Positions 12,097-19,450 of a stretch of 21,869 bases of DNA are shown piece after piece. This DNA comes from a virus. Made by a program: the position numbers and the translations under genes. Location: positions 1 to 21,869 of the IMG/VR virus record IMGVR_UViG_3300027608_000180. One strand, given 5' to 3'. Below the pieces are notes generated by a model, which made no database searches, was not told the DNA's origin, and saw only the letters and a list, made by a program, of their open reading frames with translations. Each line of letters starts with the position of its first letter. Position 1 is the first letter of the stretch.

Positions 12097-13011
12097 ATGT
12101 CCATGCGATATGCAGCGGGGTTTATCTCCGCATTTTACAATCCGCTAAAGAATCCTAACGCTCCTACCATTGGTACGGCTACGGCTACTTTTAGTGGGAT
12201 AACAGTTGCGTTTACTGCTCCAAGTAATGTGGGCGGTAGTGCAATAACAAGTTATATAGCTATAGCTAAAAGAACCTCTGATGGTGTTTTGTTTACTGCA
12301 TCGGGTGCATCGTCACCGATTACTGTTACGGGTCTAACAGCGGTTGCGTTTACAGCTACAGTGGTTGCGGTAAATTCTTATGGGCCAAGCGCATCAAGTG
12401 CTGCTAGTAATTCTGTAACACCCCTGCCAGCTATTGGCTCTGCATTAGGTGGTGGATACTTTGCGGGTCAAATCTCGACTGCTGGTAATGGTGTGGCTGA
12501 TTACAACCTAGTAGTTGGCCCTGTTTCTTCAGCACAAAGTACAAGCAAACAATGGAAAATAGTAAACACAACAACTGCTGGAACTACATCGGTAATTAAC
12601 GGGCCAGCCAATAGCACAGCAATGAATGATGTAACTCATCCAGCGGCACTATTCTGTGAAGCGGTTACTGCTGGCGGTTTTACAGACTGGTATATGCCAG
12701 CTAAAAACGAGTTGGAAGTTTGTTATTACAATTTAAAACCAATGACAACTAGCAATAACACATCATCTGGAATAAATGCAAATGCAGTTCCAGCAAGAGC
12801 TAGTAATTACACGACAGGAACACCTGCTCAAACTTCAGCTACAGATTTTCAAGATACAGGTGCAGAAGATTTTTTAAATGGTTTTTACTGGTCTAGTACT
12901 GAAGGTTCTAGTACGGCAGCATTTTGCCAAGATTTTAGTGACGGACTTCAGGCCAACTATGGAAAGACTAATTCGCTTTTTGTCCGAGCCATCCGCAGAG
13001 TTGCAGTCTAA
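12097..13011 (+). CDS. FN3 + DUF1566/C-type-lectin-like adhesin 1
   Basis: This 304-residue protein is the first of three tandem paralogues. Residues 1-20 are a short arm shared in style with its neighbours. Residues about 21-110 form a fibronectin type III domain (PTIGTATATFSGITVAFTAP ... GLTAVAFTATVVAVNSYGPS). Residues about 117-304 are a DUF1566-type (Lcl C-terminal-like) domain with DWYMPAKNELEVCYYNLKP, the hallmark of this C-type-lectin/FGE-like fold. The last ~41 residues have a conserved YWSST frame, a variable patch and VRAIRRVAV at the end. It probably binds a host-surface ligand while attached to the fibre. Only this copy has the FN3 domain. Confidence 0.8.
   Translation: MSMRYAAGFISAFYNPLKNPNAPTIGTATATFSGITVAFTAPSNVGGSAITSYIAIAKRTSDGVLFTASGASSPITVTGLTAVAFTATVVAVNSYGPSASSAASNSVTPLPAIGSALGGGYFAGQISTAGNGVADYNLVVGPVSSAQSTSKQWKIVNTTTAGTTSVINGPANSTAMNDVTHPAALFCEAVTAGGFTDWYMPAKNELEVCYYNLKPMTTSNNTSSGINANAVPARASNYTTGTPAQTSATDFQDTGAEDFLNGFYWSSTEGSSTAAFCQDFSDGLQANYGKTNSLFVRAIRRVAV
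12886..13011 (+). repeat. variable C-terminal patch, copy 1 (DGR-target-like)
   Basis: These 126 bases (to the stop) encode the YWSST ... VRAIRRVAV frame. The ends match copies 2 and 3 closely (TGGTCTAGTA; GCCATCCGCAGAGTTGCAGT), while the centre encodes different residues at many positions. This layout matches variable regions of C-type-lectin targets of diversity-generating retroelements. Confidence 0.55.
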
Positions 13012-13019
13012 GGAAACAT

Positions 13020-13682
13020 ATGCCAAGTTACTCAGGTGTTTTTACTTTACAAGCGCAGATGCAAGCTAAGGCGGCAAGCAATTGGCCGCCTTTTCCACCA
13101 GCAATTGGTGCGGCTTATGAGGGTGGGTTTTATGCAGGGCAAATTTCAACAGCAGGGAATGGAATTGCAGATTACAACTTAGTTGTTGGCCCTGTAGCGT
13201 CTGCACAAAATACAAGTGTGCAATGGAAAACAAGTAACACTAGCACAGCGGGAACATCATCTGTCATTGACGGCCCATCTAATAGTTCCGCAATGAACAA
13301 TGCAACCCATCCAGCGGCTCAATTTTGTGAAGCGGTTACAGCGGGTGGATATACGGATTGGTATATGCCTGCTAAAAATGAATTGGAAGTTTGTTATTTT
13401 AATTTAAGACCTACTACATCAAGCAACAACACATCTTCGGGCATTAACACCAACGCTGTGCCAAGTAGAGGAAGTAATTACACAAGTGGCACACCAGCAC
13501 AAACTTCAGCAACAGCATTTCAAACAAGTGGGTCAGAGGCGTTTATCAATAACACTTATTGGTCTAGTACGGAGTATTCTAGTACACCCGCATGGGCGCA
13601 GTATTTTGATAACGGCTATCAATACTACACCACTAAAACTAATTTACGTCGTGTCCGAGCCATTCGCAGAGTTGCAGTTTAA
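13020..13682 (+). CDS. DUF1566/C-type-lectin-like adhesin 2
   Basis: This 220-residue paralogue lacks the FN3 domain. Its N-terminus (YSGVFTLQAQMQAKAASNWP, residues 4-23) is a short module found on many phage tip proteins and related to that of adhesin 3. The lectin-like domain (about residues 30-220) keeps GGFYAGQISTAGNGIADYNL, DWYMPAKNELEVCYFNL and the C-terminal frame from YWSST to VRAIRRVAV. The patch between differs from adhesin 1 at most exposed-looking positions. It follows adhesin 1 by 8 bases with a good AAGGAAA ribosome site. Role: receptor recognition, inferred. Confidence 0.8.
   Translation: MPSYSGVFTLQAQMQAKAASNWPPFPPAIGAAYEGGFYAGQISTAGNGIADYNLVVGPVASAQNTSVQWKTSNTSTAGTSSVIDGPSNSSAMNNATHPAAQFCEAVTAGGYTDWYMPAKNELEVCYFNLRPTTSSNNTSSGINTNAVPSRGSNYTSGTPAQTSATAFQTSGSEAFINNTYWSSTEYSSTPAWAQYFDNGYQYYTTKTNLRRVRAIRRVAV
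13557..13682 (+). repeat. variable C-terminal patch, copy 2 (DGR-target-like)
   Basis: Also exactly 126 bases. Against copy 1 about 16 codons in the centre change residue, mostly at first and second codon positions, with Tyr, Asn, Asp, Thr, Leu, Arg at the variable sites. Several codons in the conserved part differ silently, so it is not a fresh copy of the same template. Confidence 0.55.
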
Positions 13683-13691
13683 AGGACAACC

Positions 13692-14441
13692 ATGAGCCAA
13701 AAATATCCAGGCGGGTTTATTACAAAGAGTCCTGTAGCACCAGCAGGCCCTTATGAAACAAGCGTTGCAAAAGGCGTGTGGACACTTGACCAAGCTATGC
13801 AATTTAAGAAACAAGGGCTATGGCCTACTGCTGGAAATACTGCACCCCCAACAGTAATTGGTGAGGCTTATGGTGGTGGATATTACGCAGGTCAAATTGG
13901 TATCTCTAGCGTAGCAACACATTATTTAATTGTTGCTCCTTTATCATCAGGGCAAAGTAACTTAGCTTGGAAAAACGCAAACACAGCTACTACTGGTGCT
14001 GATAGCGTTATTGATGGGCCACAGAATACTGCTGACATGGTAGCTGATGGAAGTTCTACTGTTTATCCCGCTGCTTACTTTTGTAATGATGCGGTAATTG
14101 GTGGTTTTTCTGATTGGTATATGCCAGCTAAAAATGAACTGGAAGTTTGCTATTTCAATCTAAAGCCAGATACAACTAGCAATGTTACAAATTCTGGAAC
14201 TAACGCTAACGCAGTACCAGCCAGAGCCAGCAATTACACAACTGGCAACCCTGCACAAACTTCAGCAGTGTTGTTTAAAGTTGATGCAGCGCAACCTTTT
14301 GCAATTGATAATTATTGGTCTAGTAGTGAGTTTTCTTCCACAGTTGCGTGGAGGCAATATTTTGGTAATGGCTATCAGAAAAATTATGGTAGCAAAAGTA
14401 GTGCAAATCTTGTAAGAGCCATCCGCAGAATTGCAGTTTAA
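13692..14441 (+). CDS. DUF1566/C-type-lectin-like adhesin 3
   Basis: This 249-residue paralogue starts MSQKYPGGFITKSP, then has a GVWTLDQAMQFKKQGLWP module (residues about 28-45), the same kind as in adhesin 2 but longer. The lectin-like domain (about residues 55-249) keeps GGGYYAGQI and DWYMPAKNELEVCYFNLKP. It ends with the YWSSSEFSST frame, a variable patch one residue longer than in copies 1 and 2, and VRAIRRIAV. It is the most diverged of the three in the middle part. Ribosome site AAAGGA precedes the ATG. It probably provides a further binding specificity on the same tail. Confidence 0.8.
   Translation: MSQKYPGGFITKSPVAPAGPYETSVAKGVWTLDQAMQFKKQGLWPTAGNTAPPTVIGEAYGGGYYAGQIGISSVATHYLIVAPLSSGQSNLAWKNANTATTGADSVIDGPQNTADMVADGSSTVYPAAYFCNDAVIGGFSDWYMPAKNELEVCYFNLKPDTTSNVTNSGTNANAVPARASNYTTGNPAQTSAVLFKVDAAQPFAIDNYWSSSEFSSTVAWRQYFGNGYQKNYGSKSSANLVRAIRRIAV
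14313..14441 (+). repeat. variable C-terminal patch, copy 3 (DGR-target-like)
   Basis: This copy is 129 bases, one codon longer. It keeps TATTGGTCTAGTAG at the start and AGAGCCATCCGCAGAATTGC near the end. The centre encodes V, R, Y, G, Y, K and N/Y/G/S-rich positions that differ from both other copies. Confidence 0.5.
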
Positions 14442-14462: not shown

Positions 14463-14897
14463 ATGTTTATTTGTGTAACAGAAGTTGACCACAACACCCG
14501 TATCCCTTGCACTGTTGAACCACAGCGCACAGGGCCATCTATGCCCGCCATAAAGGGCTTAAAAGTAGTATGGCAAGACAAGTCAACATGGCCTGTTGAA
14601 CTAGCCTCAGATGGCACATATTTGCGTGCGCCTAAATACTATGGCACTTGCGATGACGATGCCGATACTACTATCGCTGGTGTCTTGCAAGTCTTGACTG
14701 AAACAGAATACAACGCACTTAGAGTTACAGAGCATGAAGCCACTAAGCCTTATCCATCTTGGATTGGTTACTTGGACACAATGAGTTGGTCTGCTCCTGT
14801 AGCACGTCCTGTAGATGCGGTGATGAATGGCGGCAATGTTCGTTATCAATGGGATGAAGCTACCCTTAATTGGATTGCTCAGACTGCACAAGCATGA
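14463..14897 (+). CDS. small protein after the adhesin genes (possible fibre-assembly factor)
   Basis: This 144-residue soluble protein has no recognised family with certainty. It has a beta-like first half (KGLKVVWQDKSTWPVELASD, residues 30-49; a CDDDAD acidic turn near 60) and a C-terminal part with NGGNVRYQWDEATLNWIAQ, a Trp-rich end that recalls tail-fibre-assembly proteins. A strong AAGGAG ribosome site is at 14450-14455. The stop overlaps the sulfotransferase start by ATGA, so the sulfation genes are coupled to it. A chaperone or fibre-associated role is only suggested by position. Confidence 0.6.
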   Translation: MFICVTEVDHNTRIPCTVEPQRTGPSMPAIKGLKVVWQDKSTWPVELASDGTYLRAPKYYGTCDDDADTTIAGVLQVLTETEYNALRVTEHEATKPYPSWIGYLDTMSWSAPVARPVDAVMNGGNVRYQWDEATLNWIAQTAQA

Positions 14898-15715
14898 AAG
14901 AGTTTTACTTTATCTCAGGTTTGCCAAGGTCAGGCTCAACCCTGCTTTCGGCTATTCTGCGTCAAAACCCTGAGTTTTATGCAGATATATCTTCACCCGT
15001 ACAAGGCTTGGTTACATCAACCATCAATGTTATTACGGGAAGTGAGAGCAACCACACAATAGATGAAGATAGACGTAGGCACATCCTCAAGTCAATATTC
15101 AATTCGTTTTATGAATCAGTCACCCCAAGCACAGTTTTTGACACTAGCAGGGGATGGACTTCTAAGACTTCTTTATTGAAAGACCTGTACCCACAGACAA
15201 AGATTATTTGCTGTGTGCGTGACTTGCCTTGGATACTTGATAGTTTTGAGCGTATTTCTGCCAAAAACTCCTTATATGGTGCGGCACTAACAGACGATGA
15301 AGCTAGGCAAACAGTCACTACAAGATGCGATGCTTTAATGGATGTTAAAAAAGAAGGCCAAGTGGTCAAGCCTTACTATTTCCTAGAAGAAGGTCTGTTG
15401 TTAAACCCCGACATGATTATGTTGGTGGAGTACGAATCTCTGTGCAAAAAGCCTGAGAGTGTGATGCGTGAGATATACAATTTCATTGGCAAACCTTATT
15501 ACCAGCACGACTATAAAAATGTCGAGTATGAGAATGAAGTGTTTGACAAAGCCTTGAATATGAAAAGCCTTCATACAGTACGAAAAGAAGTTACATGGCA
15601 AGAACGTCCATCTATTCTTCCTAAGTCTGTATGGGAGAAGTATTCTGGCAAAGAGTTCTGGCGCACACCCGCACCAGAGTTTGCAATGAAACAACTGTAT
15701 AAGGTCAAGGGATGA
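14894..15715 (+). CDS. PAPS-dependent sulfotransferase
   Basis: This 274-residue protein belongs to the sulfotransferase superfamily, which moves a sulfate group from PAPS to a hydroxyl or amine of a glycan, lipid or protein. The 5'-phosphosulfate-binding loop is clear at residues 8-18 (SGLPRSGSTLL). The 3'-phosphate-binding segment is at residues 107-120 (CVRDLPWILDSFER), with the expected Arg and Ser. The length is normal for bacterial and phage members. The ATG at 14894 is chosen over an in-frame ATG 24 bases upstream because it gives a 4-base ATGA overlap with the preceding gene. It overlaps the next gene, an APS-kinase-like fusion, by 4 bases. The acceptor is unknown; host-surface glycan or virion adhesin are both possible. 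Confidence 0.85.
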   Translation: MKEFYFISGLPRSGSTLLSAILRQNPEFYADISSPVQGLVTSTINVITGSESNHTIDEDRRRHILKSIFNSFYESVTPSTVFDTSRGWTSKTSLLKDLYPQTKIICCVRDLPWILDSFERISAKNSLYGAALTDDEARQTVTTRCDALMDVKKEGQVVKPYYFLEEGLLLNPDMIMLVEYESLCKKPESVMREIYNFIGKPYYQHDYKNVEYENEVFDKALNMKSLHTVRKEVTWQERPSILPKSVWEKYSGKEFWRTPAPEFAMKQLYKVKG

Positions 15716-16497
15716 AAAGAATTCTAATTATGGGTTTGCCTAATGCTGGTAAAACTTATCTAGCACAGCACGTTCTTGAACACTTGCAAAACAACCGCAA
15801 GACTGTCATGTGGCTTAACGCTGATGATGTGCGTAAGCAATTTAATGATTGGGACTTTTCCCATGAAGGACGTATTCGTCAGAGTTTACGGATGCGTGAG
15901 TTAGCTGACAGCTACGATGTGGACTATGTTATTTGTGACTTTGTTGCACCTTTGGTTGAGATGCGTAATAACTTTAAAGCTGATTGGACAGTTTGGGTTG
16001 ATACCATTGATAAAGGTAGATTTGAAGACACAAATAAGATATTTGTTGCGCCAGAGCAGTATGACTTTAGGATTACTGAGCAGAAGGCTGAGAAGTGGGG
16101 CGAGTTCATTGCCGCACACATTCTGGATGACCGCCAGCGTCCTGTCTTTGATTGGCAAAAAGAGACTGTCCAAATGCTTGGCAGATGGCAACCTTGGCAT
16201 GAAGGCCATCGTAAGTTGTTTGAAAGAGCATTGGCTAAAACTGGTCAAGTGGTTATCCAGATTAGAGACTGTCAAGGTTGGAATGGCTCAAACCCGTTTG
16301 CGGCTAATCAGGTCAAAGACTTTATCAAGCGTGACTTAGACCCTTTATATCAAGGGCAATATGAAATACAACTTGTACCAAATATTGTTAATATCACCTA
16401 TGGGAGAGATGTAGGTTATAAGATTGAACAGGAATCTTTTGACGATGCTACTCACGCTATTTCAGCAACAAAGATACGAAAACAAATGGGTGTCTAA
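15712..16497 (+). CDS. APS-kinase-like / HxGH nucleotidyltransferase fusion
   Basis: This 261-residue protein has two domains. Residues 1-~135 look like adenylylsulfate kinase: P-loop GLPNAGKT (8-15), the LNADDVRKQFNDWDFS segment (35-50) and the R-rich helix GRIRQSLRMREL (53-64), then CDFVAPLVEMRNNF. Residues ~150-261 look like an HxGH-type nucleotidyltransferase: GRWQPWHEGHRKLFERAL (157-174) and ISATKIRKQ (250-258), as in NMN-adenylyl-, cytidylyl- and, more distantly, ATP-sulfurylase-type enzymes. Beside a sulfotransferase the simplest idea is PAPS supply: an adenylyl transfer to sulfate, then 3'-phosphorylation. The second domain is much shorter than classical ATP sulfurylase, so its substrate is uncertain. 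Alternatives are another small-molecule kinase or NAD-type metabolism. Confidence 0.75.
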   Translation: MKRILIMGLPNAGKTYLAQHVLEHLQNNRKTVMWLNADDVRKQFNDWDFSHEGRIRQSLRMRELADSYDVDYVICDFVAPLVEMRNNFKADWTVWVDTIDKGRFEDTNKIFVAPEQYDFRITEQKAEKWGEFIAAHILDDRQRPVFDWQKETVQMLGRWQPWHEGHRKLFERALAKTGQVVIQIRDCQGWNGSNPFAANQVKDFIKRDLDPLYQGQYEIQLVPNIVNITYGRDVGYKIEQESFDDATHAISATKIRKQMGV

Positions 16498-16722
16498 ATG
16501 ACAGAAGTAACTCACGAACAAATCTACGAAAGACTGCTTGCGGTTGAGACTAAGGTAGATACCATCGACAAGAACACAAGTGGTCTTGTAGAGGCTATAA
16601 AGGCTGCTAATGGTGCTGTAAAGGTTCTTAACTGGATTGCATCTATTGCCCAACCTGTTTTATGGATAGGTGGGTTAGTCATTGCTGCGGGTGCTATCTG
16701 GCAGACATGGATTAAAAAGTAA
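16498..16722 (+). CDS. small single-span membrane protein, possible holin (XhlA-like)
   Basis: This 74-residue protein has an N-terminal amphipathic coiled coil (EQIYERLLAVETKVDTIDKN, residues 7-26) and one C-terminal membrane span (about residues 52-69, PVLWIGGLVIAAGAIW) followed by a short basic tail (WIKK). This layout is like XhlA-type holin or haemolysin proteins. Its ATG directly follows the previous stop (TAAATG). It is the first of several small membrane genes leading to spanins and endolysin, which supports a lysis role. Another gene of this cluster could be the true holin. Confidence 0.6.
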   Translation: MTEVTHEQIYERLLAVETKVDTIDKNTSGLVEAIKAANGAVKVLNWIASIAQPVLWIGGLVIAAGAIWQTWIKK

Positions 16723-17819: not shown

Positions 17820-18361
17820 AAGTTGCCGAAGTTAAAAGCACTGAGGAACTCATAGAACTTCTAAAAGTTTGCGGTTGGCTTTTTGCGGTTGTTGTTGTCA
17901 TGTTGGTGTTTGGAACAATAGTTATAGCTTTTTTGTATTCAATAATTTTTGTGACGCAACCAATCAAATCTCTTGCGCCTCTAGATGCTGCGGTACTTAA
18001 AATGTTAAATGACATTGTTCTTTTGTTGGTTGGCAGTATCACGACTCTGATTGGAATGTATGCACTCAACAAGGGGTCTAGAGCCATCGCAAATCGAATG
18101 ATGCCTACTACACCTACACAGCCTATGTGTGGCGGTTATGGAGGCTCTCAGGGCGGTTATCAATCAACTCCTCCAACCTATAACCCTCAAGGTGCTTATG
18201 GCGGTCTTCCAAGCCAACCATTCGGGGCTATGCCTGTTTGGAAGAATCCAGAACTAGATGAATCGTGGACTCCCCCTCCTCCTCCGACTACTCCTCCAGA
18301 GCATCTTGAAGATGACCAAGAGCGTGAAGAAATAGCACAAGCAAGAAAAGAGGCTGACTGA
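17816..18361 (+). CDS. two-span membrane protein with Pro/Gly-rich tail
   Basis: This 181-residue protein has two predicted membrane spans (about residues 19-46 and 63-84) separated by a short loop. A disordered Gly/Pro/Gln-rich segment follows (residues about 97-155, with GGYGGSQGGYQSTPP and ESWTPPPPPTTPP), then a charged helix at the end (DDQEREEIAQARKEAD). Two spans directly before spanin genes fit a holin-like role, but the tail is unusually long for one. It overlaps the lipoprotein gene by 4 bases and the i-spanin gene by one (TGATG). The function is not known from sequence. Confidence 0.65.
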   Translation: MKVAEVKSTEELIELLKVCGWLFAVVVVMLVFGTIVIAFLYSIIFVTQPIKSLAPLDAAVLKMLNDIVLLLVGSITTLIGMYALNKGSRAIANRMMPTTPTQPMCGGYGGSQGGYQSTPPTYNPQGAYGGLPSQPFGAMPVWKNPELDESWTPPPPPTTPPEHLEDDQEREEIAQARKEAD

Positions 18362-18852
18362 TGTTACCTATACCTTGGTTAATCGTTGGTGTTCTGGTAT
18401 CTCTCTTTGGTACATACCGAGTTGGTCACCACTATGGATGGTTAGAGCGTGATGGTGATATGAAAATTGCCATTGCCAAAAAGAACGAGGAGGCTCGTCA
18501 GATAGAGCAAAACATGGGTGAGAAACTTAATCAACAATCTCTAAAACTACAGGAAGCCAATGATGCTATCAACAAAAAAACTACTGCTTTATCCATTGCT
18601 AATCGTGCTGGCAAGTTGCGCCTCTGCCCCTCCAGTAACGTACAAGCCCCCACAAGTACCCCCGTTGCCAGCGCAGATACAAAAGCAACCAGTGAACCTG
18701 ACAGACCGACTGACACAGCTTCTGATGCCGAAAGAGCAACCATCGAAGCCATTGCCGAAATAGTTGCACAGGGTGATAGAAATACTATTGCACTCAATGC
18801 TTGTGTGGACTCATACAACGAAGTAAGGAATCTCTTAAATGGTAAGCCCTGA
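18361..18852 (+). CDS. Rz: i-spanin, Rz-like
   Basis: This 163-residue protein has an N-terminal inner-membrane anchor (residues about 4-21, IPWLIVGVLVSLFGTYRVG) and a periplasmic coiled coil (residues 30-80, rich in Glu, Gln and Lys). A flexible Ser/Thr/Pro part (88-120) and a second helix with Cys147 follow. This is the layout of Rz, the inner-membrane spanin that pairs with an outer-membrane lipoprotein to fuse the membranes at the last step of lysis. The partner is encoded inside this gene in another frame. The stop lies 14 bases inside the endolysin gene. Confidence 0.8.
   Translation: MLPIPWLIVGVLVSLFGTYRVGHHYGWLERDGDMKIAIAKKNEEARQIEQNMGEKLNQQSLKLQEANDAINKKTTALSIANRAGKLRLCPSSNVQAPTSTPVASADTKATSEPDRPTDTASDAERATIEAIAEIVAQGDRNTIALNACVDSYNEVRNLLNGKP
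18560..18763 (+). CDS. Rz1: o-spanin lipoprotein, Rz1-like, embedded in the Rz gene
   Basis: This 67-residue frame lies entirely inside the i-spanin gene in the +1 frame. It has a lipoprotein signal (KKLLLYPLLIVLASC, lipobox LASC, Cys20). The short mature part is proline-rich (APPVTYKPPQVPPLPAQIQK), the hallmark of Rz1. AGGA at 18551-18554 serves the ATG at 18560 or a second ATG three bases on. It would sit in the outer membrane and join the i-spanin across the periplasm. The nested arrangement is the same as in lambda. Confidence 0.85.
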   Translation: MMLSTKKLLLYPLLIVLASCASAPPVTYKPPQVPPLPAQIQKQPVNLTDRLTQLLMPKEQPSKPLPK

Positions 18853-19450
18853 CCAACTTAAAAAGATGCACATAGACCCATCTTTAGCAGATGCGTTTAA
18901 TGAGACATTTGATAGATTCGGAATTAGCACACCTGTTCAGCAAGCAAGTTGGATTGGTCAATGTGGGCATGAGTGTGGAAACTTTCGCATCATGGAAGAA
19001 AACTTAAACTATCGTGCTGCTACGCTTTTAAAGTTATTTCCTAGAACACCAAAAAGAGCATGGGGTTTTACGCCAGAGGAAGCTGCTGCCTACGAGAAAC
19101 AACCACAACGCATTGCTAACAGAATCTATGGTAATCGTATGGGTAACAGGGATGAAGCGTCTGGGGATGGGTTTCGTTTCCGTGGGTCTGGATTTTTACA
19201 GCTAACTGGTCATAGCAACTTCTTCCATGCAGGGCAAGCCTTGGGTGAAGACTTTGTAATGCAACCAGAGTTAGTCAGAACACCTAAATACGCTGCTATG
19301 ACAGCAGGTTGGTTCTGGCAGACACACAAGCTAAACCAGTATGCTGATAGCCGTGACTTCTTAATGATGACTAAAAAGATAAATGGAGGCACGATTGGTC
19401 TGGATGACAGAATCAAACACATCAATCATGCCTTGGACATTATTGCTTAG
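18839..19450 (+). CDS. endolysin, glycoside hydrolase family 19
   Basis: This 203-residue enzyme would cut the glycan chains of peptidoglycan at lysis. It has GH19 (chitinase/lysozyme) hallmarks: WIGQCGHECGNFRIMEENLNY (residues 38-58, with Glu45 as likely catalytic acid), and FRFRGSGFLQLTGHSNFF (112-129). The region TKKINGGTIGLDDR (178-191) holds the conserved Asn-Gly pair. There is no signal peptide, so release depends on a holin. AAGGA at 18825-18829 precedes the ATG by 9 bases. It overlaps the spanin gene by 14 bases and the convergent winged-helix gene by 11. Confidence 0.9.
   Translation: MVSPDQLKKMHIDPSLADAFNETFDRFGISTPVQQASWIGQCGHECGNFRIMEENLNYRAATLLKLFPRTPKRAWGFTPEEAAAYEKQPQRIANRIYGNRMGNRDEASGDGFRFRGSGFLQLTGHSNFFHAGQALGEDFVMQPELVRTPKYAAMTAGWFWQTHKLNQYADSRDFLMMTKKINGGTIGLDDRIKHINHALDIIA

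Follow-up and report, generated by a model that had tools for sequence, protein, structure and literature searches.

In the 21.9 kb linear virus record analysed here (the window), two adjacent genes probably form a cassette consisting of a compact PAPS synthetase and a sulfotransferase, that is, a self-supplied sulfation system whose acceptor is most likely a surface sugar or a sugar of a phage-modified glycan. According to the proposed mechanism, the C-terminal HxGH adenylyltransferase domain of a fusion protein (hereafter the NT domain) would move the AMP moiety of ATP onto sulfate to form APS, and the N-terminal APS-kinase domain, which is well supported by family and fold, would phosphorylate the 3'-OH of APS to give PAPS. 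The sulfotransferase encoded by the overlapping gene would presumably use this PAPS to sulfate its acceptor. On a more general level, we consider the chances about even that the NT domain, of roughly 115 residues, arose independently of Sat and CysDN as a third ATP sulfurylase class, that SAR11, haloarchaea, Marinimicrobia and many phages employ it in sulfation and not in sulfur assimilation, and that phages have spread it in the form of a 261-residue PAPS synthetase accompanied by interchangeable sulfotransferases.

Two overlapping genes and their domains

Scaffold and major head proteins are encoded at the left end of the window and mark a virion structural region. Three Lcl_C (DUF1566) proteins follow (12097..13011, 13020..13682 and 13692..14441, all on the + strand; PF07603 at 1.7e-10, 4e-13 and 2.8e-10, respectively), the first of which is a possible carbohydrate binder, and then a 144-residue protein (14463..14897, +) with a weak match to PHROG 7759 (5.5e-6). 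The sulfotransferase gene (14894..15715) and the fusion gene (15712..16497) are both on the + strand and each shows an ATGA overlap with the preceding gene; the ATG at 14894 overlaps the stop codon of the gene at 14463-14897, and that at 15712 the stop codon at 15713-15715. Directly 3' of the fusion gene lies the gene for a holin-like protein (16498..16722, +; PHROG 689, 9e-4), followed by those for an Rz-like spanin (18361..18852, +; PHROG 2466, 5.2e-8) and an endolysin (18839..19450, +; PHROG 181, 3.4e-70). A preliminary description of this DNA had placed two genes with ATGA overlaps at 14894-16497, between tail lectins and lysis genes. Both the coordinates and the overlaps are confirmed, and the Pfam and PHROG matches agree with this placement, with Lcl_C proteins upstream and the holin-like, spanin and endolysin genes downstream.

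By family, the 273-residue product of the gene at 14894-15715 is strongly indicated to be a PAPS-type sulfotransferase. It matches Sulfotransfer_3 (PF13469) with 65.9 bits against a curated cut-off of 27 (8.3e-18), and its match to Sulfotransfer_1 (PF00685, 5.9e-11) is also above the curated cut-off. Both cofactor motifs can be read from its sequence on the + strand, namely the 5'-phosphosulfate binding (5'-PSB) motif PRSGST (14924..14941) and the 3'-phosphate binding (3'-PSB) motif RDLPWILDS (15218..15244). Its best matches among PDB sequences are weak and include the CurM sulfotransferase and protein-tyrosine sulfotransferases. The corresponding phage family, PHROG 27463 (5.6e-49), is entered as of unknown function, without mention of sulfotransferase. 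Median dN/dS against relatives is 0.05 for the sulfotransferase and 0.03 for the fusion.

The fusion gene encodes 261 residues comprising an APS-kinase-like and an HxGH adenylyltransferase-like domain, as indicated by profiles and folds, and its phage family is PHROG 10255 (1.9e-48), an entry that is labelled 'kinase' and names neither of the two domains. The N-terminal half (residues 1-140; 15712..16131, +) is assigned with strong support from family and predicted fold to the APS kinases. APS_kinase (PF01583) matches residues 4-90 with 38.7 bits against a cut-off of 21.1 (1.3e-9), and a profile built from 43 homologues detects human PAPSS1 as the best match in the PDB (1.7e-18), followed by other APS kinases. 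In a Foldseek search with the AlphaFold2 model (mean pLDDT 89), APS kinases and PAPS synthetases alone were found among the best 50 PDB chains, the human PAPSS1 structure 1x6v being the top fold match of the kinase domain. The match to TIGR00455, the APS kinase equivalog of NCBIfam, is partial and misses the cut-off (26.0 bits vs 138.7).

At the residue level, G8, G13 and K14 of the P-loop GLPNAGKT (15733..15756, +) are invariant. Residues described for APS kinase (PMC4373884) include the catalytic Asp480, the APS-stacking Phe492 (the first such Phe) and the adenine-contacting Arg497; in the family alignment these correspond to D38 and F49, which are invariant, and to R54 of the DR motif, which is at least 90% conserved. 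The Mg-binding first Asp of LDGD is missing in the window (Asn36, LNAD) and in most phage members, and the kinase lid (RDxKGLY and FTG(I)D, with the equivalents of Arg559 and Lys562) is likewise shortened in the window and most phage members. Haloarchaeal members of the family have DGD and a complete, canonical APS-kinase lid, their adenylyltransferase domain being the same. The two proteins had been described earlier as a PAPS-type sulfotransferase with both cofactor motifs and as an APS-kinase-like protein. The HMM search places the first inside the sulfotransferases, while HMM and structure comparisons place the N-terminal half of the second with the APS kinases; its C-terminal adenylyltransferase domain had been left unnamed.

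This C-terminal domain (residues 150-261; 16159..16494, +), which also occurs as a separate gene in SAR11, is NMNAT-like by profile and fold and is devoid of the segment aligned with the NMN site. It carries, on the + strand, the HxGH catalytic motif GRWQPWHEGH (16180..16209; G157, R158, Q160, P161, H163, G165 and H166 invariant in 43 sequences), a GRDVGY motif resembling the GRD loop of ATP sulfurylase (16402..16419; G231, R232, V234, G235 and Y236 invariant) and ISATKIR, a second ATP motif to be compared with SGTxxR (16459..16479; T253 and R256 invariant). The forms that are invariant across the family are GR[WYF]QPxHxGH, GR-x-VGY and SxTxxR. Pfam CTP_transf_like matches the C-terminus of the fusion at 4.5e-4, an archaeal NMNAT model matches the isolated domain at 3.3e-8, and an NT-domain profile of 33 sequences detects the archaeal NMN adenylyltransferase MJ0541 in the PDB at 9e-13, with ISATKIR aligned to SGTEIR. 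Residues 76-109 of MJ0541, which we take to be the region including the NMN site, are skipped in this alignment. The cut-off of the NMN adenylyltransferase equivalog is missed by the NT domain (30.8 bits vs 181.2), and Foldseek with its predicted structure detects NMNAT (1ej2) and phosphopantetheine adenylyltransferase (PPAT).

Sat-type ATP sulfurylases are characterised by HxxH, the GRD loop, SGTxxR and the sulfate-binding QxRN motif (PMC3779200). HEGH, GRD and SATKIR of the NT domain occur in the same order as the first three, a resemblance that need not mean homology to Sat, and QxRN is missing, GRWQ standing in its place. The Pfam search of the fusion gave no match to the profile of the Sat family PF01747, to which the NT domain could not be assigned. 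With QxRN missing and a shortened lid in the phage kinases, sulfate can be named as the adenylyl acceptor by inference only.

Sulfotransferase linkage in relatives

Relatives of the fusion are encoded in 570 stretches detected by a viral scan, of which the best 80 were retrieved. A recognisable sulfotransferase is present in 76 of the best 80, and the remaining four (L067, L071, L073 and L085) each extend less than 4 kb upstream. A sulfotransferase like that of the window abuts the fusion in 51 of the 52 stretches L007-L058, L043 having a divergent sulfotransferase nearby; the pair thus recurs more often than by chance. More distant fusions (~40-50% identity) adjoin sulfotransferases of other families. 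PF13469 sulfotransferases lie beside the fusion in the window clade and in L146, L158, L168 and L170, a PF03567 sulfotransferase over the cut-off in L121 (weak in L113 and L118), a PF17784 match in L116 (1.3e-36) and a weak Stf0-like match in L091; L093 and L135 encode further P-loop sulfotransferase candidates that are unrecognised by Pfam. Directly upstream of the fusion in L116 (6667-7992), Sulfotransfer_4 is fused behind a glycosyltransferase-like N-terminal part. Phage DLP_6 encodes a Sulfotransfer_2 protein elsewhere in its genome. As a survey of related phages for the gene pair, these data show that it recurs in dozens of them and also in unrelated phages with other sulfotransferases.

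An apparent set of diverse fusion loci without a sulfotransferase, obtained using tblastn and a narrow HMM of the window sulfotransferase, was discarded as largely a sensitivity artefact because the neighbours belong to other sulfotransferase families. A tandem pair of P-loop sulfotransferase-like proteins (TPRTGSS, TNRSGST), missed by Pfam or below its cut-off, was observed immediately upstream of the fusion in L091, L098 and L099. The sulfotransferases of L059, L064, L076 and L080 are ~590 residues long, with an N-terminal part similar to the sulfotransferase of the window.

The association extends to plasmids. All eight haloarchaeal plasmids examined (L169-L171, L175-L179) have a sulfotransferase beside the fusion, in the order sulfotransferase, fusion (annotated cysC), with a small ORF between in some and a YqcI/YcgG gene alongside; this cassette possibly belongs to a natural-product pathway. 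A Rhodoferax plasmid shows the order tail fibre assembly, sulfotransferase, fusion, the fusion copy being truncated.

Phyletic pattern and alternative explanations

Across phages, haloarchaea, SAR11, Marinimicrobia and Omnitrophota, the kinase and adenylyltransferase domains are fused in either order or are encoded by split adjacent genes. In the genome scan, the fused kinase-NT form was found in one haloarchaeon, Alphaproteobacteria and some SAR11; two Omnitrophota have the order NT-kinase, and most SAR11 matches and Marinimicrobia encode the domains in two adjacent genes. The split genes of the SAR11 chromosomes L243, L245, L247, L256 and L257 share a conserved neighbourhood of metabolic genes, not sulfotransferases; in L257 a single gene separates the two, at a distance of 2.4 kb.

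The NT domain replaces ATP sulfurylase phyletically. PF01747 is absent in 25 of the 25 scan genomes with the NT domain and CysN exceeds the cut-off in three of the 25; a fourth genome, Omnitrophota G051, where a CysN-like and a CysD-like gene lie side by side with scores below the cut-off, was counted as having canonical ATP sulfurylase. PF01747 or CysN is present in all 11 genomes of the same scan that have ordinary CysC only. In a sample of 194 Halobacteria, Sat or CysD over the cut-off was found in none of the six genomes with the fusion, Sat was found ~40 bases away in all four with CysC only, and ten genomes with neither kinase lacked Sat. Canonical ATP sulfurylase is present in 4 of 30 NT-domain genomes as compared to 15 of 15 ordinary-CysC-only genomes (Fisher p 1e-8, which ignores kinship; lineage-collapsed p 0.02), and for haloarchaea alone the counts are 0/6 (fusion) and 4/4 (CysC only; p 0.005). 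Single absences of ATP sulfurylase carry little weight, because the cellular set includes many MAGs and single-cell genomes. The earlier suggestion that the cassette is self-supplied gains strength, since the second protein also contains a domain that phyletically replaces ATP sulfurylase, with sulfate as its presumed acceptor. If the NT domain activates sulfate, it would constitute a new sulfate-activating enzyme class that is also present in SAR11, where 'Ca. Pelagibacter ubique' is reported to be without cysDN and sat (PMC5069961). In that case PAPS for sulfation could be produced in SAR11, and a function would be available for many phage genes annotated as 'kinase'.

Several observations were counted against the reading as a PAPS synthetase: the NT domain is nearest to NMNAT by sequence and not to Sat, and is without QxRN; the phage kinases have a shortened lid and, in the window, Asn36 in place of the Mg-binding Asp; the Casjensviridae fusions are without a sulfotransferase and the SAR11 split pair lies beside metabolic genes; and in four genomes the NT domain occurs together with canonical CysN or CysND-like genes. 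The missing QxRN and these four genomes would also fit an explanation in which the kinase makes PAPS from APS of the host, the NT domain acts otherwise or is a regulatory remnant, and the phage activates no sulfate. Bacterial hosts often supply APS, and phage homologues of 145-161 residues consisting of the kinase only (L160, L163-L166) point in the same direction. However, every catalytic motif of the NT domain is invariant in 43 sequences, and a separate NT gene lies beside the kinase in SAR11 and Marinimicrobia genomes that have no recognisable canonical ATP sulfurylase; we consider such dependence on host APS unlikely.

A role in NAD or other nucleotide metabolism, as a NadR-like kinase joined to an NMNAT with the sulfotransferase as an incidental neighbour, was suggested by the similarity to NMNAT and by the NADAR neighbour in Casjensviridae. 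Archaeal NMNAT is the nearest relative of the NT domain (9e-13). In four complete Casjensviridae genomes with the fusion (L002, L004-L006), whose genes were taken from public annotation, four Pfam models detected no sulfotransferase; a NADAR-like gene adjoins the fusion where annotated or scanned, and MazG-like and cysteine-dioxygenase genes are near. However, the kinase half groups by sequence and fold with APS kinases and not with the NadR ribosylnicotinamide kinase, residues 76-109 of MJ0541 are unaligned in the fusion family, and linkage with several sulfotransferase families is repeated in phages, bacteria and archaea. On account of this linkage and the kinase fold, NAD metabolism was rejected as the main reading, and we regard it as distinctly improbable.

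Some relatives of APS kinase, such as C. jejuni Cj1415, have other substrates, and the MeOPN pathway involves a kinase related to APS kinase together with a nucleotidyltransferase of a different fold. Although such relatives and the shortened phage lid could suggest that kinase and NT domain make another activated group (e.g. a nucleotide phosphoramidate, cf. capsule MeOPN) that is moved by a sulfotransferase-fold enzyme, the differing nucleotidyltransferase fold, the canonical lid in haloarchaeal homologues with the same NT domain and the presence of both PAPS motifs in the neighbouring sulfotransferase make this very improbable.

Known systems and the probable acceptor

The proposed PAPS synthetase resembles human PAPSS1/2 in its order of an APS kinase, homologous between the two, at the N-terminus followed by an ATP-activating domain, and in the two-step chemistry proposed for the fusion. 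However, the human enzymes are ~620 residues long with a C-terminal ATP sulfurylase (Sat), whereas the 261-residue fusion has an NMNAT-like domain without the QxRN motif and a shortened kinase lid. Sat-CysC fusions (Aquifex 2gks) and haloarchaeal sat-cysC pairs also link an ATP-activating domain to APS kinase, but the adenylyltransferase of the phage fusion represents another branch of the HxGH superfamily. Archaeal NMNATs (MJ0541, 1f9a; M. thermautotrophicus, 1ej2) share with the NT domain the GRxQPxHxGH and SGTxIR motifs and the fold; in contrast to them, the NT domain has no counterpart of MJ0541 76-109, and GRDVGY is specific to the NT-domain family.

A sulfotransferase together with a PAPS supply is of a known kind, while an NMNAT-like domain in place of Sat is apparently undescribed; no description of a 261-residue APS kinase-NMNAT-like fusion as PAPS synthetase was found in the literature searched (subscription papers excluded). 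Sulfotransferases, belonging to Sulfotransfer_3 as here, are encoded in OM43-phage genomes and cyanophages, and the report on them (PMC10580990) calls their function 'unclear'; its passages on these genes make no mention of a linked PAPS-making gene. A linked source of PAPS turns sulfation during infection into a testable hypothesis, and a one-chain PAPS synthetase of 261 residues, if real, would be a useful biocatalyst.

Gene neighbourhoods in relatives favour a glycan over a virion protein as the acceptor, which would most likely be a sugar in a glycan of the cell surface or in one modified by the phage. A glycan is probable because the relatives' fusions lie among glycosyltransferase genes (L131, L136 and L158), UDP-galactopyranose-mutase-like genes (L084, L086 and L121; names from reading the sequences) and, downstream of the fusion in L059, L064 and L080, ADP-heptose-like genes (HldE-C-like, cupin, HldE-N-like and epimerase, also by sequence reading). 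Since the upstream Lcl_C domains in the window are of the kind that recognises sulfated glycosaminoglycans in Legionella Lcl (PMC11162425), binding and sulfation may be connected. The three Lcl_C proteins (12097-14441) are tandem paralogues with differing N-termini beside the sulfation genes, and RCC1-like repeat proteins are found in their place in L059, L064 and L080.
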